64,000 nucleotides of DNA. Source: Agelas oroides. Lineage: Eukaryota > Porifera > Demospongiae > Agelasida > Agelasidae. Under the pieces are notes generated by a model that worked only from the letters and a program-made list of their open reading frames with translations, was not told the DNA's origin and made no database searches. The stretch covers positions 6,676,991-6,740,990 of the forward strand of contig OX422197.1 of the NCBI GenBank assembly GCA_949130485.1, written 5' to 3'. A program made the translations under genes and the position numbers. Shown piece by piece: positions 39,744 through 64,000 of the stretch (its first letter is position 1; each line of letters opens with the position of its first letter).

Positions 39744-42700
39744 CTTTGTGCGCCTTTTGCACCGAGAAATGGTTTGTATTTTTAAACTCTTCATGCCCAT
39801 ATCTTCTTGATAATATGCACTTTGCATTAGTGCAACCTTTGTACCGAGCTAGGATTAGTCGCGAATGTACGCGAATTTCCATTCACGGCACAATACTGCG
39901 ATGCAGGGAACGGAGATATTGGACGGTCTGTACAGCTTTGTGCGCCTTTTGCACCGAGAAAGGGTTTGTATTTTTAAACTCTTATTCCCCATAGCTTCTT
40001 GATAATATGCACATTGCATTAGTACAACCTTTGTACCGAGCTAGAATTAGTCGCGAATGCAGGCAAATTTCCATTGACGACACTATACTGCGATGCAGGG
40101 AACGGAGATATTTGCCGGCTTTTACAGCTTTGTGCGCCTTTTGCACCGAGAAATAGTTTGTATTTTTAAACTCTTCATGCCCATAGCTTCTTGATAATAT
40201 GCACTTTACATTAGTGCAACCTCTGTACCGAGCTAGGATTAGTCGCGAATGTACGCGAATTTCCATTCACGGCACTATACTGCGATGCAGGGAACTGAGA
40301 TATTGGCTGGCCAGTACAGCTTTGTGCGCCTTTTGCACCGAGAAATGGTTTGTATTTTTAAACTCTTCATGCCCATAGCTTCTTGATAATATGCACCTTG
40401 CATTAGTGCAACCTTTGTACCGAGCTAGGATTAGTCGCGAATGCTCGCGAGTTTCCATTGACCGCACTATACTGCGATGCAGGGAACGGAGATATTGGAC
40501 GGTCTGTACAGCTTTGTGCGCCTTTTGCACCGAGAAAGAGTTTGCATTTTTAAACTCTTCTTGCCCATAGTTTCTTGATAATATGCACTTTGCATAAGTA
40601 CAACCATTGTACCGAGCTAGCATTAGTCGCGAATGCACAGGAATTTCCATTGACGGCTCTATACTGCGATGCAGGGAAAGGAGATATTTGCCGGCTTTTA
40701 CAGCTTTGTGCGCCTTTTGCACCGTGAAATAGTTTGTATTTTTAAACTCTTCATGCCCATAGCTTCTTGATAATATGCGCTTTGCATTAGTGCAACCTCT
40801 GCACCGAGCTAGGATTAGTCGCGAATGTACGCGAATTTCCATTCACGGAACTATACTGCGATGCAGGGAACGGAGATATTGGCTGGCCAGTACAGCTTTG
40901 TGCGCCTTTTGCACCGAGAAATGGTTTGTATTTTTAAACTATTCATGCCCATAGCTTCTTGATAATATGCACCTTGCATTAGTGCAACCTTTGTACCGAG
41001 CTAGGATTAGTCGCGAATGCTCGCGAGTTTCCATTGACCGCACTATACTGCGATGCAGGGAACGGAGATATTGGACGGTCTGTACAGCTTTGTGCGCCTT
41101 TTGCACCGAGAAAGGGTTTGCATTTTTAAACTCTTCTTGCCCATAGCTTCTTGATAATATGCACTTTGCATTAGTGAAACCTTTGTACCGAGCTAGGATT
41201 AGTCGCGAATGTACGCGAATTTCCATTCACGGCACTATACTGCGATGCAGGGAACGGAGATATTGGACGGTCTGTACAGCTTTGTGCGCCTTTTGCACCG
41301 AGAAAGGGTTTGTATTTTTAAACTCTTATTCCCCATAGCTTCTTGATACTATGTACCTTGCATTAGTGCAACCATTGTAACGAGCTAGGATTAGTCGCGA
41401 ATGCACGCGAATTTCCATTGACGGTACTATACTGCGATGCAGGGAAAGGAGATATTTGCCGGCCTATACAACTTTGTGCGCCTTTTACACAGAGAAATGG
41501 TTTGTATTTTTAAACTCTTCATGCCCATAGCTTCTTGATAATATGCACTTTGCATAAGTACAACCATTGTACCGAGCTAGGATTAGTCGCGAATGCACGC
41601 GAATTTCCATTGACGGCTCTATACTGCGATGCAGGGAAAGGAGATATTTGCCGGCTTTTACAGCTTTGTGCGCCTTTTGCACCGTGAAACAGTTTGTATT
41701 TTTAAACTCTTCATACCCATAGCTTCTTGATAATATGCACTTTGCATTAGTGCAACCTCTGCACCGAGCTAGGATTAGTCGCGAATGTACGCGAATTTCC
41801 ATTCACGGAACTATACTGCGATGCAGGGAACGGAGATATTGGGTGGCCAGTACAGATTTGTGCGCCTTTTGCACCGAGAAATTGTTTGTATTTTTAAACT
41901 CTTCATGCCCATAGCTTCTTGATAATATGCACCTTGCATTAGTGCAACCTTTGTACCGAGCTAGGATTTGTCGCGAATGCTCGCGAGTTTCCATTGACGG
42001 CACTATACTGCGATGCAGGGAACGGAGATATTGGACGGTCTGTACAGCTTTTGTGCACCTTTTGCACCGAGAAATGGTTTGTATTTTTAAACTCTTCATG
42101 CCCATATCTTCTTGATAATATGCACTTTGCATTAGTGAAACCTTTGTACCGAGCTAGGATTAGTCGCGAATGTACGCGAATTTCCATTCACGGCACAATA
42201 CTGCGATGCAGGGAACGGAGATATTGGACGGTCTGTACAGCTTTGTGCGCCTTTTGCACCGAGAAAGGGTTTTATTTTTAAACTCTTATTCCCCATAGCT
42301 TCTTGATACTATGTACCTTGCATTAGTGCAACCATTGTAACGAGCTACGATTAGTCGCGAATGTACGCGAATTTCCATTGACGGTAATATACTGCGATGC
42401 AGGGAAAGGAGATATTTGTCGGCCTGTACAGCTTTGTGCGCCTTTTGCACCGAGAAATGGTTTGTATTTTTAAACTCTTCATGCCCATAGCTTCTTTATA
42501 ATATGCACCTTGCATTAGTGCAACCATTGTACCGAGCTATGATTAGACGCGAATCTACGCGAATTTCAATTGACGGCTCTATACTGCGATGCAGGGAACG
42601 GAGATATTGGCCGACCAGTACAGCTTTGTGCGCCTTTTGCACAGAGAAATGGTTTGTATTTCTAAACTCTTCATGCCCATAGCTTCTTGATAATATGCAC

Positions 42701-50217: not shown

Positions 50218-50339
50218 TAATTTCGTTCTACCTCCGTTCTATCTTTGAGGGTTCTCACGTGAGAATAAATACCAGCTCTCTCCGCGTGTACAACTTTCAA
50301 TTTCGCATTCCGGAGCGGAGGAGCCTGGGAACGAGGCTA
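50218..50339 (-). mobile_element. Truncated copy of the TAGCCTCGTTCCCAGGC MITE at the satellite edge
   Basis: Ends GGAGCCTGGGAACGAGGCTA and matches, in reverse orientation, the left part of the complete element at 62649-63023 (shared internal markers TTCTCACGTGAGAA, CTCAAAGATAGAACGGAGG and reverse complements). The other half is missing at the junction with the satellite. Confidence 0.75.
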
Positions 50340-50488
50340 GCTAAACCGATTTAGACCAGTTAGCAAACCGGTACGTAAACAACTTCCGGGAGGTGGTTTG
50401 AAGCCGGCTTAGTGCGGTTTAGGCGCGTGCGAGTGGCATGTAAAACACTAAGTGGCGGCTGAACGGCTTCTGTGCAATTGAAAATACA

Positions 50489-51623
50489 ATGAATCGCGGA
50501 GCACTTTGGTTTGATGAGGAGGTTAGAGCTCTTATACACGTCTGGGGGGATGATAAAATTCAGCAAGAGCTGGATGGGGCATCGAGAAATAAGCCAAAAT
50601 TTGTTGCAATCGCAAAAAAAATGAACGAGAAAGGGTACAACAGAGATTGGCAACAGTGCAAAGCAAAAATCAAAAATCTAAAAGGAGAATATAGAGCGGT
50701 TAAAGACCACAATAATGGCACTGGTAGGGGGCGCAAAACGTGCAAGTTCTTCAGTGAGCTGGATGAAATCCTTGGTTGCAGGCCAGCATCCATACCATCA
50801 GTTTTGCTGGAATCTTGCAGTACACCAGACCTGCAGTCAGTTGGTGATGTAGAGGATGGAGAGCGAAATGGAAATGGTAAGATTTACACAAAAGAGCTTT
50901 TGCATAACTTAATCTGGACCAGTTACATGATGTATTTTGTTACCTTTGCCATAGATGAAACTGACTTACACGTCCAATCCTTGGACAGTGGAACGTCTGA
51001 GACTGCAGAGCCAACAAGTGACCCAGAATTGGATGAGCAAGGTTAGTAATTTGCCCGACAATTTGCAAGAGCAAGAGCGCATAAGAACAGGCGGCTAGAG
51101 TAAGAGTGTGTAACTCCTATAGAAGCCCATAGTCCGGTCAAAATTATTGAACTGTTACTAAAAATAGAACACCCGGCACGTCTTAGCAACAACGGCTTAT
51201 GTCTACGCGCAGCTGCGCAGTACGTGTTACTATTTTTATTAACGGTTCAATAATTCCGACCGGTTTCAAATTTACGGAGTTACATGCTCTTACTCTAGCC
51301 GCCCGTTCTTATGTGCTCTTGGTAAGAGTAATTGAAGGAATGTTAAAGTATCTATAATACGTTCACAAATTGTAGCTCCCAGAAGCAAGAAGCCAAAGCT
51401 GGAGCCTATTACTAAGGAGCTAAAGAAGGACAAGATCAAGAAGAGTAAAGCAGAGAGGGCAATGGAAAAGGCAACAGAATCCTTTTTAAAATACCAGCAG
51501 GCAGCAGAGGAGTGATTTATGAAGTGGGAAGAAGAACAATGGAAAAGGGAGAGTGAAATGGAAGAGAAACGAAGAAAGCAGGAACAACAGCACGAGATGA
51601 GAATGCTTGAGATGCTGGGCTGA
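50489..51623 (+). pseudogene. Myb/SANT-like DNA-binding protein of a PIF/Harbinger element (two exons, decayed)
   Basis: Exon 1 (50489-51044) encodes a Myb/SANT-like domain in its first ~100 residues: WFDEEVRALIHVWGDDKIQ, then ...FVAIAKKMNEKGYNRDWQQC...KIKNLKGEYRAVKD, with the spaced aromatic/hydrophobic helices of the trihelix-type domain found in Harbinger accessory proteins. These bind transposon ends and import the transposase. Exon 1 ends CAAG|GTTAGT, and a phase-matched acceptor (TTGTAG|CTCCCAG) begins exon 2 at 51376. Exon 2 is lysine/glutamate-rich and coiled-coil-like (KSKAERAMEKATESFLKYQQ, then after a stop EEEQWKRESEMEEKRRKQEQ). In-frame TGA codons at 51513 and 51621 interrupt it; both fit CGA to TGA decay, although 51513 could be the true end. 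A MITE (51072-51321) fills the intron. Convergent pairing with the transposase at 53284-54293 is the usual Harbinger layout. Confidence 0.72.
51072..51321. mobile_element. MITE with ~45-bp inverted repeats in the Myb-like intron
   Basis: The ends are CAAGAGCGCATAAGAACAGG and its inverted partner ending CGTTCTTATGTGCTCTTG. The arms continue through GGCGGCTAGAGTAAGAG and its complement. The interior contains a GC-rich palindromic centre (GCGCAGCTGCGC). No coding capacity. Confidence 0.78.
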
Positions 51624-51795
51624 TTTATGCAACCACAGTACCCATATGGTGGCAGTGGCCCATCGTTTGACCCCTATAACACATACGACACACATGAGAT
51701 TTAGAATACATACGGTTGATACTGAAACTGTTACTTAGCAACCCATTACTGGATCCAAATATAATAAGTATTATCAAATGTGTTATTATATAATT

Positions 51796-52258
51796 ATCAT
51801 ACGTCTAACTCACGCTAATGTATGGGAGTCAATGGGGAAGCCTTGCAGCTGTGCACAGTTTATAAAAAGCCGTACAATACAGACGGCAACAAACTCGTGA
51901 TATTTTCCGGTATAGCTTCGTACTATGGTGATAGTATCATCATAGTACAAAGCTATACCGGAAAATATCACAAGTTTGTTGCCATCTGTATTGTTACGAG
52001 TGCGCAGCACGAGTAACAATGACAATGGCAACAACCGAGTAATATTTTCTTCTGGTATAGCTTGGTACTATGGTGATAATGATTTTATCATACGAACCTT
52101 CGATTTCATTGCATGTTCAGATGCATGCACATGACTTGTATTGCCTGATACAGATTATCGCGTTACTTGTAGTAAAAAATACGGGTTTTTAAAAACTGCG
52201 TGCAGCTGCAAGGCTTCCCCATTGACTCCCATACATTAGCGTGAGTTTGACGTATGAT
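51796..52258. mobile_element. MITE with ~55-bp inverted repeats and an internal hairpin
   Basis: Inverted ends ATCATACGTCTAACTCACGC and GCGTGAGTTTGACGTATGAT continue through TGTATGGGAGTCAATGGGGA. Inside, GATATTTTCCGGTATAGCTT and its inverted copy (about 51898-51972) form a second foldback. 52547-52936 holds a diverged relative of this element. Confidence 0.75.
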
Positions 52259-52546
52259 ACTATAAATCGTGGAAAGGTCGCTTTCGCGGATTCCGGAACA
52301 GTACTTCGCTATTACATTGGTCAAACTTTTCTTGCTACGTTTCGGTCCGATCCGGACCTTCTTCAGGCATACATCAACTGGGACACTGGTCAAACCTTGT
52401 CCTTGTATTTGACCAGTGTCCCAGTTGTTGTATGCCTGAAGAAGGTCCGGATCGGACCGAAACGTAGCAAGAAAAGTTTGACCAATGTAATAGCGAAGTA
52501 CTGTTCCGGAATCCGCGAAAGCGACCTTTCCACGATTTATAGTATC
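52256..52546. repeat. 291-bp near-perfect hairpin (foldback element)
   Basis: Left arm starts GATACTATAAATCGTGGAAA and right arm ends with its reverse complement at 52546. Arms of about 135 bp are almost identical, including GGTCCGGATCGGACCGAAAC, and meet around a short loop near 52391-52411. The reading frames in it (such as 52241-52663) are a by-product. It abuts the right end of the preceding MITE, sharing GATAC/GTATGAT sequence. Confidence 0.9.
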
Positions 52547-53283
52547 AGCATCACAGTCTTCGGCCCGAGATACCGGCTGTTAAGGGTTTCGGATTTCAAA
52601 AAAATTAGACATATGATAAAGTCGTTTATCATACATCTAACTTATGCGAGTGTACAGGAATAAATGGGGAAGCCTTGAAGCTACAGGCAGTTTATTAAAA
52701 GCCGTATTGTTTACTACATGCAAGTCACGTGAGAATCTGTATTAGTACTACAAGTCACACGCACTACGTCTGAAAAGGGAGGCTCACATGATAAAATCAT
52801 TATCACCATAGCTAGTACCAAACTATACTGGAAAAAATACCACTCTTTTCTTGCATTTGGCATTGTTACTCGTTCTGCACACTTGTAACAATACAGATGG
52901 CAACACACTCATGATAATTTCCGGTGTAACTTTGTACAAGAGCGCATAAGACATGGGCGGCTAGAGGAAGAGCGTGTAACTATGTAATATTCCAAACCGG
53001 TCGGAATTTACCACTGGAACTAAAAATTAGTAACACGTATGCACAGCTGCACGTAGACATGTTGCTAAGCACGTGCCGGGTGTTCTATTTGTAGTACGAT
53101 TGTGTAGATCCTCTGGACTAGTCCTTTCTGTATTGCACGTTACATAATATGCAATACAGAAAGGACTAGGAATGAAAAGTTTGCATAATTGTCTTGTTTC
53201 AGGTACATGATGTTAAATGTCACATATATGTATAATTGAATAATTAGAATTTGTATGCACTGTAATTAATAAGTCCAGCTATA
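52547..53283. repeat. Decayed MITE copies, no gene
   Basis: 52547-52936 resembles the 51796-52258 element (AATGGGGAAGCCTTGAAGCT, then TTACTCGTTCTGCACACTTG). 52937-53120 resembles one arm and the interior of the 51072-51321 MITE (GAGCGCATAAGACATGGGCG; GTGCCGGGTGTTCTATTT). A small inverted repeat around 53117-53170 (AGTCCTTTCTGTATTGCA and its complement) follows. Nothing else recognisable up to the transposase remnant. Confidence 0.6.
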
Positions 53284-54293
53284 TTAGTTATCTTTAAAGT
53301 ATGTTGTCAGAGCTTTCCTTATATCTTCTCCACTTCCATGCGAGCCATTATTATCACTATCTACAGTACAACCTTGGTTAATGCTACTTGTGTCGAGATC
53401 TTGGAGCCAGTCCTTATTAAAGCGTTCTCCGTGTATCTCACACAGGTTGTGAAGGAGACAACAAGCCGCAATTAGGTAAATCTGATATCTCAGTATCATT
53501 TCTTTTTGACAAGCATCGCCACCGTCCCTTCAGTCGTCCATATGCATCCTCTACAACCACCCTAGCTCTACTCAGACGATAACTGAACCTCCGCTGTTCA
53601 CGTGAAAGGTGTCCATTATCAACATATGGTTTCATTACCCAAGGAAGCAAGGGGTAAGCAGGGTCTCCAAGTACCACAAGTGGAATTTCCTCTTGCGCAA
53701 TTGTTTTCTTCCACTCAGGAAACAATGAACCGTTCATTCCCTTTTGGTAGAGAGTAGGAACTTTTATGTATCTTGGTAGCAGCAACTCCACTATAGCAGA
53801 GCATACCTCTTTTACAATGAAGCATACTGCCGTTTTAGACACACCAAAAAGATGTCCAATAGTTCGGTAGTCTGTCATGGTTGCCAATCGCCACAAAGTA
53901 AGGGCTATTCTCTGCTCAACTGATATCGCCTTGCGCATGATGGTGTCCTGCTTTTGAATGGTTTGCCAGAGTTCATTACACAGGTATGTAAACGTGGTCC
54001 TTGACATCCGGAAATTTTCAACCCAGTCATTTGGAGTAAAGGGTGATATTGACAATGCACTCCCACCAATAAGTACTCCGTTCTTTCACCCACACTACCC
54101 TAACTGCTGCCCAATGCATGGTTGCAATGGCAGTTGACATAAAGAAAGCAAAGAGCAAGCGCTCTTTTGCTTGCTGCTTGTGGAATGCTTTGCGTATTCG
54201 ACGCGCTCGCTTCTTTCTAGCAGCGGCCCGATCATGATGACTTCGTAACAAGCGCAAGCTTGTATACAACGCTGGAATCCGGACACTTTTCAT
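53284..54293 (-). pseudogene. HARBI1-like PIF/Harbinger transposase, internally deleted and frameshifted
   Basis: Read on the minus strand in three frames. 54293-54030: basic N-terminus ending VWVKERSTYWWECIVN. 54055-53480: FTPNDWVENFRMSRTTFTYL, a helix-turn-helix-like stretch (YRTIGHLFGVSKTAVCFIV), KGMNGSLFPEW, VVLGDPAYPLLPWVMKPY, and RFSYRLSRARVVVEDAYGRL. 53500-53284: AACCLLHNLCEIHGERFN to the C-terminus. These are hallmarks of DDE_Tnp_4 nucleases. Lesions: an extra base near 54030, an indel near 53490, and an internal deletion between VPTLYQ and KGMNGSLF that removes the region normally holding AIDGTH and the HDARxF motif, that is, the first two catalytic Asp residues. The product cannot be catalytic. 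Partner Myb-like pseudogene at 50489-51623. Confidence 0.85.
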
Positions 54294-54800
54294 GTTTATT
54301 TGTCGACTAACTACGCAACTCAGTAACTAAACACTTTGTACGCATGCTCAAACACACAATGAACATACCTGATTTGCAGCGCATGTAGTGGAAGTCGAGT
54401 TCTCCCTCGATGTCTTCTTGGTGAGTCTCTCCATTCTAATAATTTAAAGCGCTGACTTTTAATCAGATTTCAAACCACTTAGGCTTAGCGTTTACACGAT
54501 GAATACGATAACGCCAGCTTACCGCCTCTCGTGTAAACGCATCGCATGCGCATTCCAAACCGGCGTAAACCAGCTTACAAAAATTGCTACTAGTACAATG
54601 TACGTGTAAACGCAGTGAACCCGTTGACGGAGGAGGTTCCGTCCTATATTACAAAATTAATAATGATGTAGCTATGACGTACGCGGCTTTTAAGTCATAC
54701 GTACATGATAACACGGAAGTATACGTATTTCCGTAAAAACCATGTCCGAAAATCGCCTAAATATCCGGTTCGACTGCAAAATTCAATGAAAGTCAGAAAG
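54294..54800. other. Intergenic region upstream of VPS15 with a small inverted-repeat element
   Basis: Contains GCGTTTACACGA (54488-54499) and its exact inverse TCGTGTAAACGC (54529-54540), with a third copy ACGTGTAAACGC at 54602-54613, suggesting a short element at about 54484-54617. The VPS15 promoter is presumably in 54618-54800, but no TATA box is evident and I could not place a transcription start. Confidence 0.45.
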
Positions 54801-57800
54801 ATGGGCAATCAGATCACGGCCATTGCGCCCGCCCAGATACTGCCCCTGGAGAGCTACTTCAGTGACCAGACAGACTACAGCAAGCCAGTCAGGTAACCAG
54901 CAGCCTTAATGCATGATGATCTCTGTGCTTTAAGGATTGCATCCTTGTATGCACGAAATCCACATGACCTACGAGTAGCTCTAGCTGCTCTAGCTGCTCT
55001 GCTGATCTCCAGTTGTTGGTCACTTAAGACTGTAACTGAGATTGAGGTGGGGTGAGAGACATGGGTGAATCAGTGAGACGTTGACCCTGATACTTGGTGT
55101 GCTGCTGTAACCTCATTCCCAGATTCCTCCCTAGCTTTGTTTCACACTGTAGAGGAGCCTGGGAATGAGGCTGTGCATTGTATTCTGGAGTGACTGCCTC
55201 CTTCCATTCTTCATGCAGCCTTGGAAGCACTAGGTTCCTCAAGGTTGCGAGAGCTAAATACAGGTACGTGCGTTTAGAAACAGGAGCTTTTCATCATTTC
55301 CTCCCAACTTTCTTCCTCCTCTCTCCCCCTTCCCATCCTTTCCTTCACCTTCCCCATCTTTCTTTTTGCTATCAATGCTTTCACCAGCCTTGTTCCCAGA
55401 CCTTTCCCGCCTCCAGCACTTGCAGTGTACTGCGCAAGCAAATTGGAGGCAGGGAAGGTCTGGGAATCAGGCTACCTTTTGCTACAATTTGCACACTCAC
55501 TCACTCACTCACTCACACACACACTCACACACTCACACACTCACACACTCACTCACTCACTCACTCACACACACACACTCACACACTCACACACACACAC
55601 ACACACACACACACAAGATCCCCACCACCCAGTGATGAGGAGACTGAAGTAGTAGTAAAGGTGTTTGCAAAACATGATCCCTCCCTAAATCTGGGACCGT
55701 ATGAAAAGCGACTGCATGGTAAGCAAACCTAGCCTCGTACCCAGGCTCCTCCCCGTGCATAATATGTACAAAGGTTTGCTTAGCCTCGTACCCAGGCTCC
55801 TCCCCGTTTTTCTGCACGGGGAGGAGCCTGGGTACGAGGCTAAGCAAACTTTTGTATATATTATGTACGTACCTGAGAGAGATTAGCTTAATGAAGCAGT
55901 GAACACTGAACACACCAGAACGTTTGTGAACATGGAATGCAAAAATGGACCATGTAGGTACCAAGGTATGAGCAATCAATATCCATGTGAAGACATTTTT
56001 GTTTTATTGAGGATGTGAGGATATTTTATTGCAAATGGGTGAGGGCCAGTTGTACTTAAAAAGATATCCATGTGAAAAATAGCCTTGTTTCCTGGCCTTC
56101 TCTAGCTCCAGTCTTCAGTCACTTGCAGTATACTACTGCAAGCAATGGAAAACTGAAGCTGAGGAAGGCCTGGGAACAAGGCTACCTCTATCTGAAAGAT
56201 AGAGCTGAACAACTGAACTTCCAATTGATCTTCCAAATTGTTGTGATAATTTTCTTCATCTTTACCCTATAGATATCAAGATCAGGCTGCATGGAGTTAC
56301 AAATGCTTTGCCATTTCAAAAATTCTGGGTGAGCTTGATTGATATCTGCAGTGCTCTTTATGACACTGCAATCAACATTCCATTATCGTTTCATTTAGGA
56401 GACCGAGAAGGCTGCATTTCTAGTACGACAACATGTTCGCTACAACCTATACGACAGAATCAGGTTGCCAGGGGTTAACACTAAAGTTTAACTTTAGGGC
56501 TAAAGAGTAGTCTCATTTACAGGCTCTGCCCATTCTTGGCTCCGCCCATTCTCTGTCACCTACATTAAATGAGGAGAGCCTGAGAACCAGCCTCATTCCC
56601 AGGCTTTCCCCAGCATAGTTGATAGTGTAACTGAAAAGCTGGGAAGGAGCTTAGGAACTGGGTACTGGAATAAGAGTGTGTTTTACTCGTTTACAGTTCA
56701 AATAATAGGTAATGGATTACATGCATTTGTGCCATTGTAGCACTCGTCCATTTCTGAGTGTGATGGAGAAGAAGTGGATTGTCTTTCAACTACTGAAAGT
56801 CCTGGAGGAATGCCAGTCAAAGAAGGTACCACAAATCGTTTAAGTTGGCAATTCTGTTGGAAAGTTGTTTGTGCACATCTTGTACATGGGCCAGTTGTAT
56901 TGGACTGACATTGAAATTATGTTTAGTATTGATTACAGGATTGATTTTATCAGTTAATTGCTTGATTTGGTTGATTGATTGATTGGTTGTAAATCACCCA
57001 ACTCATATAAACCAGTCACATTCACATTCAAAATCTTGTTTGACTTCTTCAGCCATTCCCCAGTAAGCGTAGCAGTGTATCCCAGCTCCTTATCTCTACT
57101 TCTCTTCAGGTCTATCATGGAGACATCAAGACTGAGAACATACTGCTCACAGGATGGGACTGGTACGTTCCATGTGGCACTAATTCCAACAATGTCGTCA
57201 TGTCACACCTGGACTACACTTTCCAGTGAACTATGCAGAGAAGGGGTGGTCTGAACTGCTCACAAGGGCAGTATGAACTGCTTATCATTAGCTAATGCCG
57301 AGACAGTTGTCCTTGTTGCAGTGGCATACTAATGACCAAAAATGAAGCAAGCTGTTTTCATTTCAGAGAGAAGAGTAGGATTTAGGATTTGTTTGCAGGA
57401 GTTTTTATCGCAGATCACCAGACCCCCCTTCCCCCAATGGTTGTGCATTATGTCACACCACCAGCTCTTCTGGTCTTAGCCTCGTTCCTAGGCCTCCCCC
57501 ATTCGTGCTTCGCTGCTCTTTCACTTCCGTGTATATACTGAACGCAAAACGAAGAACAAAAACACAAGGGAGGCCTGGGAATGAAGCTCTTCTGGTCTTA
57601 GCCTCATCCCCAGGCCTCCCCCGTTCGTTTTTCATCGCTCTTCAGCTTCCATGCATTATATTGAACATGAGGGAGGCCTGGAAATGAGGCTAGTCTGGTC
57701 TTTCTCTTGCCCCAATTACTGTTTACCTGCTTTAATTTCAGGGTTCTTCTGACTGACTTTGCAAGCTTCAAACCCACCCTGTTGCCAGCAGTAAGTGGAC

Positions 57801-60800
57801 TCGTTCTTCTGGGTTGTACGCTAGCTCATCAGTGCATAGCCAGCAACACTGGTCTTTGAAACCATCACTGATTTCTCTGCTACAGGACAACCCTGCAGAC
57901 TTCTCATTTTTCTTCGATACTTCTCGACGCCGAACATGCTACATTGCTCCCGAGCGGTTTGTCCAGGATGTAGCCTTCTCCAGCCCAGGAGAGTCTTTCA
58001 CTGGCAAGACCAAGCATCTTATGCCAGCCATGGACATTTTCTCCCTCGGGTGTGTGAGCCTAGTTAGTAGAAAGTTTTCCATGTACTTGGCCAACCCTGA
58101 ACCAAGTACTGAAAGTTGCTAGCCTCATATTATGAAGTCTCCGCTCAGCTTTTAGCTGCTTGCAGTATGGAAATGTGCATTTGCCCATGTTGTGTGAGCC
58201 TGGCTACAAGGCTGGGAAATTAAACAAAATGTGTGTATACCAGCCCAGAGGAGGGAGGACATGACGTCACAATGTAGCGACAATTAGTGTGCTCTGATGA
58301 CATTCCAAGGGCAAGAATCGTGGATGAAGCTACAAGGATTGCTCTATGGGCTAAGTCACGACGGGCGCATAGGGTTTTCGACACAAACTGAAGCTATCTG
58401 GCTAGTCAAAATTGGTTAATATGACTCACCTCGCAGGCTAAGCTTGTAAGTTGCCAGTTCGACGCAAGATGAGTCACAGGAGGCCATTTTAAGTGCCAAA
58501 CATCTTCAACCTTGTCGAAAACCATGTACGCCCGTTGTGCCCATCGCGACTTTGTCCATATAGTGTTCGTTTAGCTTGCATCCACACTTCTTGGCCTTGG
58601 AATGTCAGTTAATAGTCGTCGTCACGTGATCGCATCCTGATACCAGCCTGTGAATGCAGCACTAAAATGCAAACTTTATTTTAGCAGCTTGTCAGAGACG
58701 GCGGAACAAAAGCTCCCCGGTTCTGCCGCCCTTGCAGCTCGTGTTAAGTGGGGAGTTCAGTATTTTATGAGTCTGCTTCTCGGCCCTTTGAACTGTAATA
58801 GCTTCTTGCAGTGCATTGCTTACAGTGTACATTTACTAGCACTACAAAATGGTGGGATTGTCCAGAAGAGGTTTATGTACATGTGTACTTTCCGCTATAC
58901 AGATGATAAGTACGGTGATAAAATATACCCTCATTGTGCCAAACCCTCACACCCTCATCGCGCGCTGTAGCTTTTCATACTACAAGCAATGAAAGCTATA
59001 TAGGGGCCTGAGAGTCTGTGAACAAGGCTGAAGTTCTGTGTTTGTTCTGTATACAGGTGTGTGATAGCTGAGCTCTTCATGGATGGACGATCCCTGTTTG
59101 ACCTCTCCCAGCTTCTGGAGTATCGCAGCGGAGAGTTCTCCCCTGACATCGTCCTCAAGCGAATCAGTGATAAATACATCAGGGTGTGTATGGGAGGGGG
59201 GAGGAGGGGTAGGTATGTTGTGCATGTAACGCACGCTCTAATAAACCGATAAAATACAAATAAAATTGAACTCGCGCTTGTGGGATCGAGGTCGAGCAGC
59301 CTCATGCATGTCGAAGTCTACACGATCAACCCGGGCGGTAACCGTGTTACCGCCCGGGTTGAGATAGAGCTTGACGAAGGAGTGGAGAGCCTCAAGTCCA
59401 AGATCCACCAGCATCTTGGGATCCTTCCGTACAGACAGCGGCTGATCGCCTTTCCAGCGGAGAGCGAGCAGAGACGCAGTTCTCCGGTTACCTTGCAAAC
59501 GGGTAGCTCTCTGCGCGACCATGGCCTCACGCAGTACGGAACGGTGATAAAAGTGGAGCTATACAACAGAGCGGGGATGGAAATGACGGTGAAGAAGGTG
59601 GGCGGGAAGATCACATTAACCATGTATCCCCCGGTTGTCTGTACCATTTTGGACATCAAACGCATGATTGGAGATTTGGAGGGTACCCCTCCTGACCACC
59701 AGCGTCTGATTCATGCTGGAAGAACACTGGAAAATTATCAATACTTGGCCAACTATGGTTTTACCGATTCTGGAAACACGATTGACCTTGTTCCCAAAGT
59801 CTGTCATCGCTTTAGCTGCAGTTTGTGTAAGGGGAAGGATGTGGTAGTGGAGCTCCCTGGTGGGCATTTGTTCCAACTTGAAGTAGAACCTTCCACTACT
59901 GTTGAAGAAGTGAAAACTAGGATTGAGGAAAAAGGGGAAGTCCCATTTGACCACCAGTCGCTCTACATTGGGACAAAATTGCTAGAAGACGGTCATGCAC
60001 TGGGGGAATATCTGGAACATTTCAGAATGAACAGAAACAGTTCTTTGAGAGTTGAGCTGAGCTACAAAGTTCCCATATGGTTTAAGCTGTACACTGGAAA
60101 GAGTTGGTGCATAGACGTTGATATTTACCACCCCCTGGAGTCACTGAAACCTCAGCTTGAGAACAAAGCGAATACAAGCTGGGCGAATCTGTGTCTTGTA
60201 CAAGATGGGAAGTTTGTGGAAAGCCACTGCAGTTTGAAGGAGAGCGGTATCCAGGAGAATTCTGTCATACATGTTGGGCTACGATTACAAACACAAATCT
60301 GCATTTCTATCAAAACCCTCACAGGGAAATTGGTAACACTTGATGTTGAGCCCTGGGCGAGAGTGGGAGATGTGAAGGCTTTGATTACAGAGGAAGTTGG
60401 GATCCCAGCTGGAAAACAGACACTGTTTTTTAAAGGAAGGTGTTTAGATGATCGGAGTACACTTGCAGAGTGTGGAGCACAGAATGACTCAATGTTTTGC
60501 GTTGTGTACCGTATATCAGGCAGGACGCAGATCAATGTTACCACAATAGCTGGAGCTATGTTCGGGTTTGAAGTTGACGCCACTGATGGTATTCTTACCC
60601 TTAAAGAAAAACTGCACAAAGTCGAACAAATTAAAATTCCGCCTGAAGACCAAAGACTTGTATTTGATGGACATTTGCTAGAAGACCAGTACACCATCAG
60701 TGACTATGGCATACGGAATGGCTCTGTTATTTACATTGTCCCACGGTCTGGGGGCTTGCTCCTCTTTGTTCAAACGCTGTCGCACAAATCCTTTAGCGTT

Positions 60801-63800
60801 GAAGTTGAGATGAAGAGTACAGTTGCAAGTGTGAAGGATGCAATTGAGAAGAAGCTGGGTGTTCCTCCCAGACAGCAGTGTTTGTTGTTTGCTGGGAGAG
60901 AGATGGAGAACGACCGGGCTCTCTGGGACTACAGCATCTCTAACAGGAGTACACTGCATCTGATATCCCCTGAGAATTCAGAAACAGGCTGACAGATAAC
61001 TTAGTTGTCTATAATACTTTTTTCCCAAATCCTTTCACAAATTTGGAATTCATTCTTCTGTATATCTGAGACGTGAATAAGTAATGTACACTGTGGTAGG
61101 TTAGGACCACGAAACATTGTGTTGTATGTCTCCTCACAGTTATGAGGATGGTATTTGAAATGGGCTTGAGGAAAATGAAATCAAGATGCAGCTAAGATTT
61201 GATCCTAGGTCTTATGAATGTTGCTTGGATGTTCTTACCGCTGAGCCATTAGAGCCCTGCCATAGTTTGGCTGAATCTCTTTGTAGACTTTCTCTGTGTG
61301 GTACTGAGCACTTGCCTGGCCTGTCAGGCGTAGTTCTTACATTCTTGCTGCAACCCCGCTACTATCCAAGCTGGATCTCCGTTTTGTTTTCTTCAAACAA
61401 CAACTGCGAATATTGCCACAAAGGTATTATTATTCCTTCCTACATCGGGTCTCCTCAGACTCATGTAGTCCTTGACAGTAAGTTCAAGGCTAAGATAATG
61501 CTGATTCCTAATTTTGTGGGGTGCTTGGGTTTATATAGTAACCACACCCACTCTTGCACACAAATGCACCCACTCTTGCACACAAATGCACCCACTCTTG
61601 CACACAAATGCACCCACTCTTGCACACAAATGCACCCACTCTTGCACACAAATGCACCCACTCCAGAGACTGGTACGTCACATGGTACAGTTAAACCCAG
61701 AGGATCGGTTCACTGTGGAGGAATACCTCAGGATATACAAGGGTAATGCTGTCCAGGGGGGAGGGGAGAGAGTGGCTAGGGGGGACACACCAGTGTACAC
61801 TCTGCGCCCTCGATGCTGCTCAGTGTTGTTCCAAGGCTTATTGTCACTTGCAGTATGAAAACTTGGGCAGGGTAATGCTGTCCAGGGGGGAGGGGAGAGG
61901 GGAGAGAGTGGCTAGGGGGGACACACCAGTGTACACTCTGTGCCCTCGATGCTGCTCAGTGTTGTTCCTAGGCTTATTGTCACTTGCAGTATGAAAACTT
62001 GGGCAGAGTAATGCTGGGGGGGGGAGGTGGGGGGGGAGAGAGTGGCTAGGGGGGGACATACCAGTGTATGCTTTCTACCAAATAGGAGTGGCCTAGGACA
62101 TTGGTACTGCAATAGTGGGGTGGGGATCTGCCCCATACCTAGTATAATCTATCGACTCTCTGATGGTAGAAGTCACTTATTCAAACATATTCAGACCAAG
62201 GGATGCTCACATAACCGAAACATTCAGATAATTCGTACAATGAACTTACTTTCCACACATCTATTATTCAGGGTTTAGATGACTGGCAGAGACTCTGCCT
62301 CATTCCCATAGTGTCATAGGAATGAGACTATTGACAATGAAGTTATCATCTTCCCTCCAGGTCTTATATTCCCCGAGTATTTCTACTCCTTCCTCCACGG
62401 CTATTTCAAGCAGTTCAGTGTAATCTCACCCCTCACACCAGACCAGTGCATCCAGAAGTGAGCCCCTCTCTTGCTAGCAGTATTCCATTTTGCATTACAC
62501 ATTTGGTCACATGGTATCTTGTGATAGTCACATGACATTTAGTTTATTTTACTAGTCTCTCCAGCATAGAAGAATCCAGCATTATAAGAATACCATAACA
62601 ATCGGAGCATTCAGTACAGCCTATATAAAGGATTGTGAGGGCTGGTGGTAGCCTCGTTCCCAGGCTCCTCCGCTCCAGAACGCGGAATTGAACTTGTGCA
62701 TGCGGAAAGAGCCTGGTATTTATTCTCACGTGAGAACCCTCAAAGATAGAACGGAGGTAGAACGACCTTAATTGCGTGTGGGCATACCCGAGACTCAGAA
62801 CAGGAAAAACAGCGAAGGTAGCGGCCAACTTACTACATGTATCTAGTTATCGGGGAGCGAATATCATACACACCGAGCATTGAACGCATAGTTGGTTGAA
62901 TAACGTGCAAAACGTTGCCTTTCTGTTTTAGTCCTATTTCGATTACGTCATGCCTACGTAGAAAAGATACCAGCTCTCCACACGTGTACAATTTGCGTTC
63001 CGGAGAGCCTGGGAACGAGGCTAGGCTGGTGGTTGCCCAGCCGGTCATAGCTCAGTGGCAGAACACTGGTACTTCACGCCAGGGATCCTGAACTCCATTC
63101 TGGCAACTACCGTCCTCATCACCACCATCTAAACGTGTTCACTTACAACTGAGGCAAGATGCTCTAAGTAATTTTTTCTTCCACCTGATGAAAGTGCACT
63201 GTCATGCAATTTGTCTTATGTACAGGCTGTACAGTGACATTGAGGCCATCATTGCTAACCTGCTGCTCAATAAACAGAAGGAAGACAGGGAGGTTGGATA
63301 CGGAGGTGCGTGCAGCAAACATGGGCTAGGTGATAGACCAGCATTCAGCTAGCCTTGTTACCTAGGATCTTAAGCATCTGGGGGCCCCTACTACGCAGCC
63401 TTCTCACATTGTACCTCCCCCATCTCTCCCTGCAGACTCCCTGGTGATTGTGCTCTCAGCCATCACATCACATCTGAGGCTGGCCCAGGTGAAACATCAG
63501 TGCATGTTGGGATCAATATCAATCTTGTTTATTTAGTCATTGATGTGCTGTGTGATGGATTACAACATTCCAGCCCTCCCTCCCCTCCTCTCTCCCCTCC
63601 TCCCTTCCCTCTTCCCTTCCCTCCTCCCTCCCCTCCTCCCTCCCCTCCTCCCTCTCCTCCTCCCTCCCCTCCTCCCTCCCCTCCTCTCCCCTCCTCCCTT
63701 CCCTCTTCCATCCTTCTTCCCTCCCCTCCTCCCTCCCTCCTTCCTTCCCTCCCTCCCTTCCCTCTCTCCCTTCCCTCCCTCGTTTCCATCTCCCTTCTCT

Positions 63801-64000
63801 CCCTCCCTTCCTTCCTTTCCTCCCTCCTTCCTTCCCTTCCTCCCTCCTTCCTTCCTTCCTTCCCTCCTTCCTTCCCTACCTCCCTTCCCTCCCTCCATGT
63901 CTCAGTTTGCAGCCTCAAAGCTGCAGGCTCTTGAGATGATGATGCGAATCTCACATCATGTGACAGACGAGTGTATTCTGGAAAGGCTGGTACCATACCT
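54801..64000 (+). CDS. PIK3R4: VPS15 / phosphoinositide 3-kinase regulatory subunit 4 (5' part, 15 exons, runs off right edge)
   Basis: VPS15 is the pseudokinase scaffold of the class III PI3-kinase (VPS34) complexes that make PI3P for endosomal sorting and autophagy. The spliced product starts [20 protein letters not shown]. Gly-2 of MGNQ is the N-myristoylation site expected for membrane attachment. Then follow the beta-strand lysine region ([14 protein letters not shown]), the helix stretch LPFQKF...[11 protein letters not shown], the catalytic loop HGDIKTEN (HGD rather than HRD, as in VPS15), TDFASFKP in place of [15 protein letters not shown], and [14 protein letters not shown] followed by [18 protein letters not shown]. 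The first HEAT repeats begin around [16 protein letters not shown]. About 407 of roughly 1,350 residues lie in the window. Every intron is GT-AG and every junction keeps phase, with no stop, so the gene looks intact. Recognition is from family sequence; the HEAT and WD40 parts are beyond the edge. Confidence 0.95.
55109..55172. repeat. Foldback MITE in VPS15 intron 1
   Basis: AACCTCATTCCCAGATTCCTCC and its inverted partner GGAGCCTGGGAATGAGGCT form a short hairpin. The rest of intron 1 (54893-55218) shows nothing distinctive. Confidence 0.7.
55387..55474. repeat. Foldback MITE in VPS15 intron 2
   Basis: GCCTTGTTCCCAGACCTTTCC pairs with GGAAGGTCTGGGAATCAGGC, with CACTTGCAGTG in the loop, as in copies at 13525 and 56080. 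Confidence 0.75.
55490..55614. repeat. (CACT)n / (CA)n microsatellite in intron 2
   Basis: About 125 bp of alternating CACT tetranucleotide and CA dinucleotide runs, ending 18 bp before the exon 3 acceptor. Confidence 0.95.
55721..55870. repeat. Compound foldback at the exon 3 donor (intron 3)
   Basis: Two direct copies of TAGCCTCGTACCCAGGCTCC (55730 and 55781) are followed by one inverted copy ending ACGAGGCTA. The second direct and the inverted copy pair over about 50 bp each (55757-55868), including AAGCAAAC outside the family terminus. The repeat starts two bases after the donor GT, so the donor context GTAAGCAAAC is itself part of the duplicated sequence. Confidence 0.8.
56080..56184. 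repeat. Foldback MITE in intron 3, 3' half
   Basis: TAGCCTTGTTTCCTGGCCTTC pairs with GGAAGGCCTGGGAACAAGGCTA. The centre contains CACTTGCAGTATACTACTGC. It is about 90 bp upstream of the exon 4 acceptor. Confidence 0.78.
56588..56664. repeat. Foldback MITE in intron 5
   Basis: AGCCTCATTCCCAGGCTTTCC pairs imperfectly with GCTGGGAAGGAGCTTAGGAA. Diverged member of the same family. Confidence 0.6.
57477..57692. mobile_element. Two tandem foldback MITEs in intron 7 flanked by three TCTGGTCT copies
   Basis: The first hairpin (57477-57588) runs from TAGCCTCGTTCCTAGGCCTC to GAGGCCTGGGAATGAAGCT and the second (57598-57692) from TAGCCTCATCCCCAGGCCTC to GAGGCCTGGAAATGAGGCTA. The octamer TCTGGTCT lies just before the first, between the two, and just after the second. 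This fits an 8-bp target duplication followed by a tandem copy. Confidence 0.8.
58120..58213. repeat. Degenerate foldback MITE in intron 9
   Basis: TAGCCTCATATTATGAAGTC and the inverted end GAGCCTGGCTACAAGGCT, with GCTTGCAGTATGG in the centre. Poorly preserved. Confidence 0.55.
58238..58648. mobile_element. hAT-like MITE in intron 9 with 8-bp target duplication
   Basis: TACCAGCC flanks the element on both sides (58238-58245 and 58641-58648). The body begins CAGAGGAGGGAGGACATGAC and ends in a partly complementary ACGTGATCGCATCCTGA. Internal arms pair imperfectly over most of the length, for example GACATTCCAAGG with CCTTGGAATGTC and GTTTTCGACA with TGTCGAAAAC. The remainder of intron 9 (58649-59056) has only a short meaningless open frame. 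Confidence 0.7.
59304..60992 (+). CDS. Intronless multi-ubiquitin-like-domain protein (seven UBL repeats) nested in VPS15 intron 10
   Basis: The 562-residue frame starting [12 protein letters not shown] divides into seven divergent ubiquitin-like modules: about residues 1-88, 92-166, 179-254, 256-328, 331-404, 408-481 and 484-556. Module 5 is the closest to ubiquitin ([20 protein letters not shown], then [18 protein letters not shown]). Modules 6 and 7 keep [16 protein letters not shown] and [17 protein letters not shown]. Unlike polyubiquitin, modules 1-5 lack a terminal Gly-Gly and the protein ends ENSETG. Only module 6 ends with a degenerate RSGG (481-484). It is therefore probably a non-processed scaffold or binding protein rather than a conjugated modifier, but that is inference. 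The frame is also open upstream to 59280 without an ATG. It lies on the same strand as VPS15 and has no introns. The function is not recognised. Confidence 0.85.
   Translation: MHVEVYTINPGGNRVTARVEIELDEGVESLKSKIHQHLGILPYRQRLIAFPAESEQRRSSPVTLQTGSSLRDHGLTQYGTVIKVELYNRAGMEMTVKKVGGKITLTMYPPVVCTILDIKRMIGDLEGTPPDHQRLIHAGRTLENYQYLANYGFTDSGNTIDLVPKVCHRFSCSLCKGKDVVVELPGGHLFQLEVEPSTTVEEVKTRIEEKGEVPFDHQSLYIGTKLLEDGHALGEYLEHFRMNRNSSLRVELSYKVPIWFKLYTGKSWCIDVDIYHPLESLKPQLENKANTSWANLCLVQDGKFVESHCSLKESGIQENSVIHVGLRLQTQICISIKTLTGKLVTLDVEPWARVGDVKALITEEVGIPAGKQTLFFKGRCLDDRSTLAECGAQNDSMFCVVYRISGRTQINVTTIAGAMFGFEVDATDGILTLKEKLHKVEQIKIPPEDQRLVFDGHLLEDQYTISDYGIRNGSVIYIVPRSGGLLLFVQTLSHKSFSVEVEMKSTVASVKDAIEKKLGVPPRQQCLLFAGREMENDRALWDYSISNRSTLHLISPENSETG
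59326..59362. repeat. Perfect 17-bp-arm hairpin at the start of the UBL gene
   Basis: TCAACCCGGGCGGTAAC and its exact reverse complement are separated by CGT, 22 bases after the ATG at 59304. The hairpin encodes [11 protein letters not shown] at the first beta-turn of module 1. Confidence 0.95.
60993..61190. other. 3' flank of the UBL gene
   Basis: AT-rich sequence with no recognisable polyadenylation tail. AATAAG near 61076 is the nearest polyadenylation-like signal. No poly(A) tract or target duplication was seen that would prove a retrocopy origin. Confidence 0.35.
61191..61265 (-). repeat. tRNA-like (SINE head) sequence, minus strand
   Basis: On the minus strand TGGCTCAGCGGT (61237-61248 region) fits an internal A box and TAGGATCAAATC (61196-61207) fits a B box, about 30 nt apart. 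Downstream on the same strand ATACCATCCTCATAAC resembles the tail after the tRNA-like piece at 63040. A tRNA-derived SINE is likelier than a working tRNA. Confidence 0.5.
61545..61666 (+). repeat. 22-bp minisatellite running into the exon 11 acceptor
   Basis: Five full copies of CACCCACTCTTGCACACAAATG (starts 61545, 61567, 61589, 61611, 61633) plus a sixth truncated copy CACCCACTCCAG (61655-61666). The AG of that last copy is the VPS15 exon 11 splice acceptor. Confidence 0.95.
61742..62070 (+). repeat. Tandem triplication (~129-136 bp) starting at the exon 11 donor
   Basis: Copies start GGTAATGCTG at 61742 and 61871 and AGTAATGCTG at about 62007. Each continues with a G-rich run, GTGGCTAGGGGGGACA, and (in the first two) GATGCTGCTCAGTGTTGTTC and CACTTGCAGTATGAAAACTT. 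The first copy begins with the last exon base and the donor, so the second copy also carries a GGGTAATG donor-like site. Confidence 0.9.
62649..63023. mobile_element. Complete TAGCCTCGTTCCCAGGCT-family MITE in intron 12 with 9-bp target duplication
   Basis: Begins TAGCCTCGTTCCCAGGCT and ends with its exact inverse AGCCTGGGAACGAGGCTA. It is flanked by GGCTGGTGG on both sides (62640-62648 and 63024-63032). Inner sequence includes TTCTCACGTGAGAA, also present in the truncated copy at 50218-50339. 375 bp, no coding capacity. This copy defines the ends of the family scattered through the VPS15 introns. Confidence 0.85.
63040..63113 (+). repeat. tRNA-like (SINE head) sequence in intron 12
   Basis: GCCGGTCATAGCTCAGTGGC has a perfect A-box consensus (TAGCTCAGTGG), but the B-box region (GATCCTGAACTCC) is degenerate and the acceptor ends do not pair well. 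It is followed by ACCGTCCTCATC, shared with the 61191 copy. A tRNA-derived repeat rather than a gene. Confidence 0.5.
63571..63899 (+). repeat. ~330-bp polypyrimidine tract (CCTCCCT)n in intron 14
   Basis: Almost uninterrupted C/T on the plus strand with CCCTCCTCCCTC repeats grading into CCTTCCTTCC, ending just before the exon 15 acceptor ATGTCTCAG. Long open frames across it are low-complexity by-products. Confidence 0.95.

Follow-up and report, generated by a model that had tools for sequence, protein, structure and literature searches.

As a rule, a ligase assembles linear ubiquitin chains and deubiquitinases remove them. The two canonical polyubiquitin genes found in the sponge genome studied here, at C15:7.88 Mb (7 units) and C15:6.54 Mb (4 units), encode ubiquitin folds head-to-tail in one unbroken frame, with units that show little or no difference from one another and finish in LRLRGG. 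Serial ubiquitin-like domains (UBLs) have also been described in other settings. In OASL, RIG-I is bound by two UBLs arranged in tandem, and the LRLRGG motif is absent from mammalian OASL and present in avian OASL (PMC8764230). Human UBBP4 was at first taken for a relic (PMC7066184); it gives rise to conjugated proteins that differ little from ubiquitin. In animals, fusions of TRADD-N domains to polyubiquitin are on record (PMC8195603), and the presence of ubiquitin arrays in animal immune proteins is therefore no novelty in itself.

Here we describe a gene that shares some features with each of the first three. It lies in a 64,000-nt stretch of contig C15 (the window), and relatives were searched for in the assembly of 259,295,671 bases and 141 contigs. 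Like the polyubiquitin genes, it encodes ubiquitin folds head-to-tail in one unbroken frame, whereas its modules are identical to ubiquitin at 20–33 of 72 positions and lack an LRxGG end. Like mammalian OASL, which binds a signalling protein (PMC8764230), its product carries serial UBLs without LRLRGG. In OASL, however, the UBLs number two and sit towards the C-terminal end of an OAS-like protein, whereas the nested protein consists of seven UBLs alone. UBBP4 would be comparable as a diverged polyubiquitin-derived gene (PMC7066184), but the nested protein has no conjugation tail. In the open-licence PMC literature no protein was recognised as this seven-UBL protein, which does not by itself prove its absence from print.

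A seven-module UBL frame in a VPS15 intron

The nested ORF, its modules and the surrounding VPS15 features are as follows (window positions).

59058..59183, + strand: VPS15 exon upstream of the nested ORF
59184..61666, + strand: VPS15 intron holding the nested ORF, phase 0, 2483 nt
59304..60992, + strand: nested ORF P0001, 562 codons plus TGA, seven ubiquitin-fold modules
59304..59573, + strand: module 1, residues 1–90, with an insertion at about residues 51–62
59574..59813, + strand: module 2, residues 91–170, beginning near M92, an ATG in stronger context
59832..60065, + strand: module 3, residues 177–254
60066..60296, + strand: module 4, residues 255–331
60297..60524, + strand: module 5, residues 332–407
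60525..60755, + strand: module 6, residues 408–484, ending in VPRSGG
60756..60989, + strand: module 7, residues 485–562, ending in SPENSETG
61667..61744, + strand: next VPS15 exon, 3′ of the nested ORF; its end is approximate

The frame proposed by an earlier sequence-only reading is intact. No interruption occurs in 59304–60992 (+), and profile searches recognise all seven ubiquitin-fold modules, placing the product in the ubiquitin superfamily (PF00240, ubiquitin-type beta-grasp domain). Only two columns are invariant among the seven modules. Polyubiquitin units are near-identical to ubiquitin and to each other, and those of the nested gene are neither. Since an LRxGG end is found in 0 of 7 modules, the proposal that the gene is not a polyubiquitin precursor also stands. 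A Rad23 identity (TIGR00601) was rejected, with 116 bits against the curated cut-off of 207.3 for the full-length model. AlphaFold2 prediction of the full-length nested protein from its single sequence gave a pLDDT of 30.6 and no usable model.

The position inside VPS15 (PIK3R4), on the same strand as the host, is likewise borne out, as the flanking exons match PIK3R4. Joined to each other and to the next exon, they match PIK3R4 chains at residues 246–341 (query 1–96, E about 4e-23) and yeast VPS15. The donor AGG/GTGTGT and the acceptor CCAG/AGACTG define the 2483-nt, phase 0 intron. A perfect 22-bp tandem repeat (5.4 copies, 61545–61663) stops just before the CAG of this acceptor. VPS15 is a subunit of a core autophagy/endosome kinase complex, and nesting there raises the question of shared regulation. 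Collectively, the nested gene is a real, intact and unusually long tail-less poly-UBL gene inside VPS15.

Copy divergence and expression signals

A 68-residue VPS15 query found its two exons at two genomic places only, with the nested ORF between them in both. Copy 2 is also on C15, some 340 kb further downstream, within a duplicated VPS15 locus, and its intron has junction sequences identical to those of the window copy. Its protein ends in SETC, that of the window copy in SETG. C15 6.73–6.75 Mb and 7.06–7.09 Mb (loci L031–L035) are colinear with insertions and deletions at an offset of 340–347 kb; the colinear stretch starts inside a satellite array and extends to the ends of the compared loci. 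A probe taken at C15 6.85 Mb matches three sites with at least 96% identity: its own, 6.90 Mb and 7.15 Mb. The colinear stretch and the threefold probe indicate that the VPS15 area is duplicated, either as a true duplicate or as uncollapsed alleles of one locus. The sequence-only reading missed this second copy, which is 98% identical, as well as the divergent multi-UBL relatives elsewhere in the genome.

The satellite has a 192-bp unit and covers most of window 1–50217, with several orientation switches; the switch near 39745 produces a 16.8-kb palindrome-like block. It abuts the VPS15 locus and also adjoins copy 2. An ORF at window 53438–54055 (−) matches the DDE_Tnp_4 transposase (51.9 bits), together with a sub-threshold HTH match.

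The copies were compared over window 58640–61326, the only duplication segment used. The ORF shows 15 mismatches in 1689 positions and no indels. The non-coding flanks carry 7 indels, and 24 of their 869 positions are mismatched (Fisher p 5e-4 versus the ORF); the flank count excludes the VPS15 exon (2/125 mismatches), with exon borders displaced by one base. The 121 nt immediately 5′ of the ATG are free of mismatches but contain two indels. The ORF changes comprise 5 synonymous and 10 non-synonymous ones, giving a dN/dS of 0.58 that does not differ from 1 (Fisher p 0.35). Present-day selection on the nested protein is likely but not proven.

These values bear on the possibility that a once-functional poly-UBL gene has lost expression so recently that its frame is still open. 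We regard this as tenable, though unlikely on the whole. The dN/dS value is compatible with it, and so are the expression signals: M1 has a weak start context (C at −3 and C at +4, versus G and G at M92), and no AATAAA or ATTAAA occurs in the 688 nt 3′ of the nested stop, where only AATGAA is present. Copy 2 has 0 of 11 scanned poly(A) signals in 1497 nt 3′ of its stop. The lower divergence of the ORF than of its flanks, its lack of indels against 7, and an open frame in both copies speak against recent loss. Counting further against expression, the 65 nt immediately 5′ of the nested ATG hold two AATAAA. When eight other loci were scanned for poly(A) signals, AATAAA was present in the scanned stretch of both polyubiquitins and of the C1:30.50 and C1:30.58 arrays described below, and absent from that of C18, C1:30.456, C11 and C4. 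A bacterial-type promoter and terminator scan of 58900–59400, a model type not applicable to an animal, returned nothing.

The start of the frame also contains a hairpin.

59326..59362, + strand: perfect 17-bp inverted repeat with a 3-nt loop, inside codons 8–20

As RNA it has a folding energy of −33.8 kcal/mol (z −8.0); of the 13 inverted-repeat pairs listed in 50300–64000 no other perfect one is as long, a 140-nt pair at 99% aside. Its 16-nt arm, with one mismatch allowed, has four genomic matches, all exact and only at the gene's two copies; the reversed control pattern has six. The hairpin begins 19 nt past the M1 AUG, whose context is weak. According to Kozak's work, a stable hairpin roughly that far from a weak start codon can favour its use, and this one may accordingly direct initiation to M1 in preference to M92. 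A template-switch scar is an equally good possibility. At the present level of divergence, the fact that both copies have the hairpin carries no information on selection.

Module ends, long-term constraint and the product

Modules 1–5 do not end in Gly-Gly, and neither does the C-terminus, where module 7 ends in SETG; module 6 is the only nested module with a terminal Gly-Gly. In these points the sequence-only reading was accurate. The C-terminal Gly-Gly of conjugatable UBLs such as ubiquitin, NEDD8 and ISG15 is absent from the nested protein. That reading had also considered a single cut after G484 releasing module 7, whose first residue is L485. Such a precursor, to which the Gly-Gly of module 6 alone lends some appeal, seems quite improbable. 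Deubiquitinases generally depend on the L73 and R74 residues of the ubiquitin tail, and the module 6 tail V-P-R-S-G-G, compared with V-L-R-L-R-G-G in ubiquitin, is one residue short and has no equivalents of them; judged from these residues, cleavage after module 6 appears unlikely. Moreover, the freed modules 1–6 would carry an atypical tail, and module 7 ends in SETG.

Among the ubiquitin lysines, K27 is kept in 7/7 modules, K48 in two (modules 3 and 4) and K63 in none. Positions 8, 44 and 70 form the face bound by many ubiquitin-binding domains. Position 44 is hydrophobic in all seven modules, and all three positions are hydrophobic in modules 2, 5, 6 and 7; the face is broken at one or more positions in modules 1, 3 and 4, with the alignment of module 1 uncertain near its insertion.

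The ORF might also serve as an alternative last exon of VPS15 and yield a kinase-domain/poly-UBL fusion, given that it is intronic and on the same strand, with the upstream exon ending in phase 0. This is hardly credible: considering the only identified donor, none of the 7 AG dinucleotides between the exon and the ATG gives an in-frame join, and in-frame read-through is shut by a TAA at 59250.

Long-term selection on the nested frame is clear. Per-module DNA divergence from the genome's own ubiquitin is 0.456–0.557 (mean 0.49). Neutral drift of seven ubiquitin units simulated to p 0.49 produced a mean of 18.7 stops and 0/1000 open frames, and at a divergence of 0.1 only 0.8% of the frames were still open, in a simulation of substitutions only, which favours the null. 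Across the seven modules, a hydrophobic residue occupies 100 of 105 cells at what we take to be the core positions, versus 107 of 399 elsewhere. The retained core and the lack of open simulated frames argue against a polyubiquitin relic under drift. That the gene is a neutral retrocopy (processed pseudogene) of polyubiquitin is barely conceivable: a single-exon ORF in another gene's intron would suit it, and many organisms have abundant ubiquitin pseudogenes (PMC7066184), but the same simulation contradicts neutrality for most of the frame's history and the hydrophobic core speaks against it.

We favour, with moderate confidence, a nested coding gene derived from an old polyubiquitin-type array. 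Such a tandem array, now inside the VPS15 intron, would have arisen long ago, and its expressed product would be a fixed chain of seven ubiquitin folds, neither processed in cells nor conjugated. The chain would bind non-covalently as a pre-assembled imitation of a linear ubiquitin chain, with a hydrophobic face of the Ile44 type on four modules available to partners that bind ubiquitin or UBLs. The best reading of its role would be a non-covalent poly-UBL scaffold, comparable in principle to the tandem UBLs of mammalian OASL. The hydrophobic face, where kept, could be structural instead of binding. If this is true, a genome that writes uncleavable chains directly would show another use of ubiquitin folds as scaffolds.

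Multi-UBL relatives in the genome

Searches of the genome returned at least 53 matches with P0001 and at least 68 with the C18 protein as query. The C18 locus encodes 9 UBLs in a 705-codon stop-to-stop frame (L022 757–2871 (−), C18:410318–412432). It is, like the nested gene, a multi-UBL array with altered module ends, and all nine of its ends lack Gly-Gly. The C1:30.456 array (4 UBLs) also has Gly-Gly at 0/4 ends. The C11 array contains 5 + 3 UBLs in two frames, with Gly-Gly at 1/5 ends in the longer frame; the C4 array has 5 UBLs and C20 has 4 in its longer frame. Two arrays on C1 are unlike the nested gene in this respect. One of them has Gly-Gly at 4 of its 10 ends, never as RLRGG.

L006 340–2991, C1:30500431–30503082, − strand: C1:30.50 array, ten ubiquitin folds

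The other, C1:30.58, comprises 22 UBLs, most of which still end in Gly-Gly; two of these ends read RLRGG and in the others the residues before Gly-Gly are changed, suggesting that its product may well be processed. These differences in degree among the module ends place the nested gene and C18 at the tail-less extreme. In a module tree built by a quick method from 70 rows and 75 columns, 38 of the 61 inner branches stayed unresolved and the nested modules fell on long branches; no module orthology is therefore claimed.

The C1:30.50 array further differs from the nested gene by a weak Death match in its tail. Scanned alone, with one letter of the query wrong, the tail scores 25.9 bits against Pfam Death (cut-off 22.6); within the whole protein it scores 21.2 bits, just under that cut-off. 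The similar tails of the C1:30.58, C1:30.456 and C11 arrays gave no Death match at E 0.001.

A bolder extension of the favoured reading, speculative and in our view doubtful, is that this animal encodes permanent linear UBL chains instead of assembling them with enzymes. The nested and C18 genes, whose module ends lack Gly-Gly apart from VPRSGG, would form the uncleavable pole of a graded family, with canonical polyubiquitin at the opposite pole and, in between, arrays whose module ends are altered, one of these with a Death-like tip. Such chains might act as ready-made signals in immunity, cell death or autophagy, and the hairpin might tune translation of the nested gene. If true, they would be natural non-hydrolysable chain mimics for probing ubiquitin-binding proteins. 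In the C18 frame, a splice-acceptor-like tttattccacag is found two bases ahead of the first ATG.
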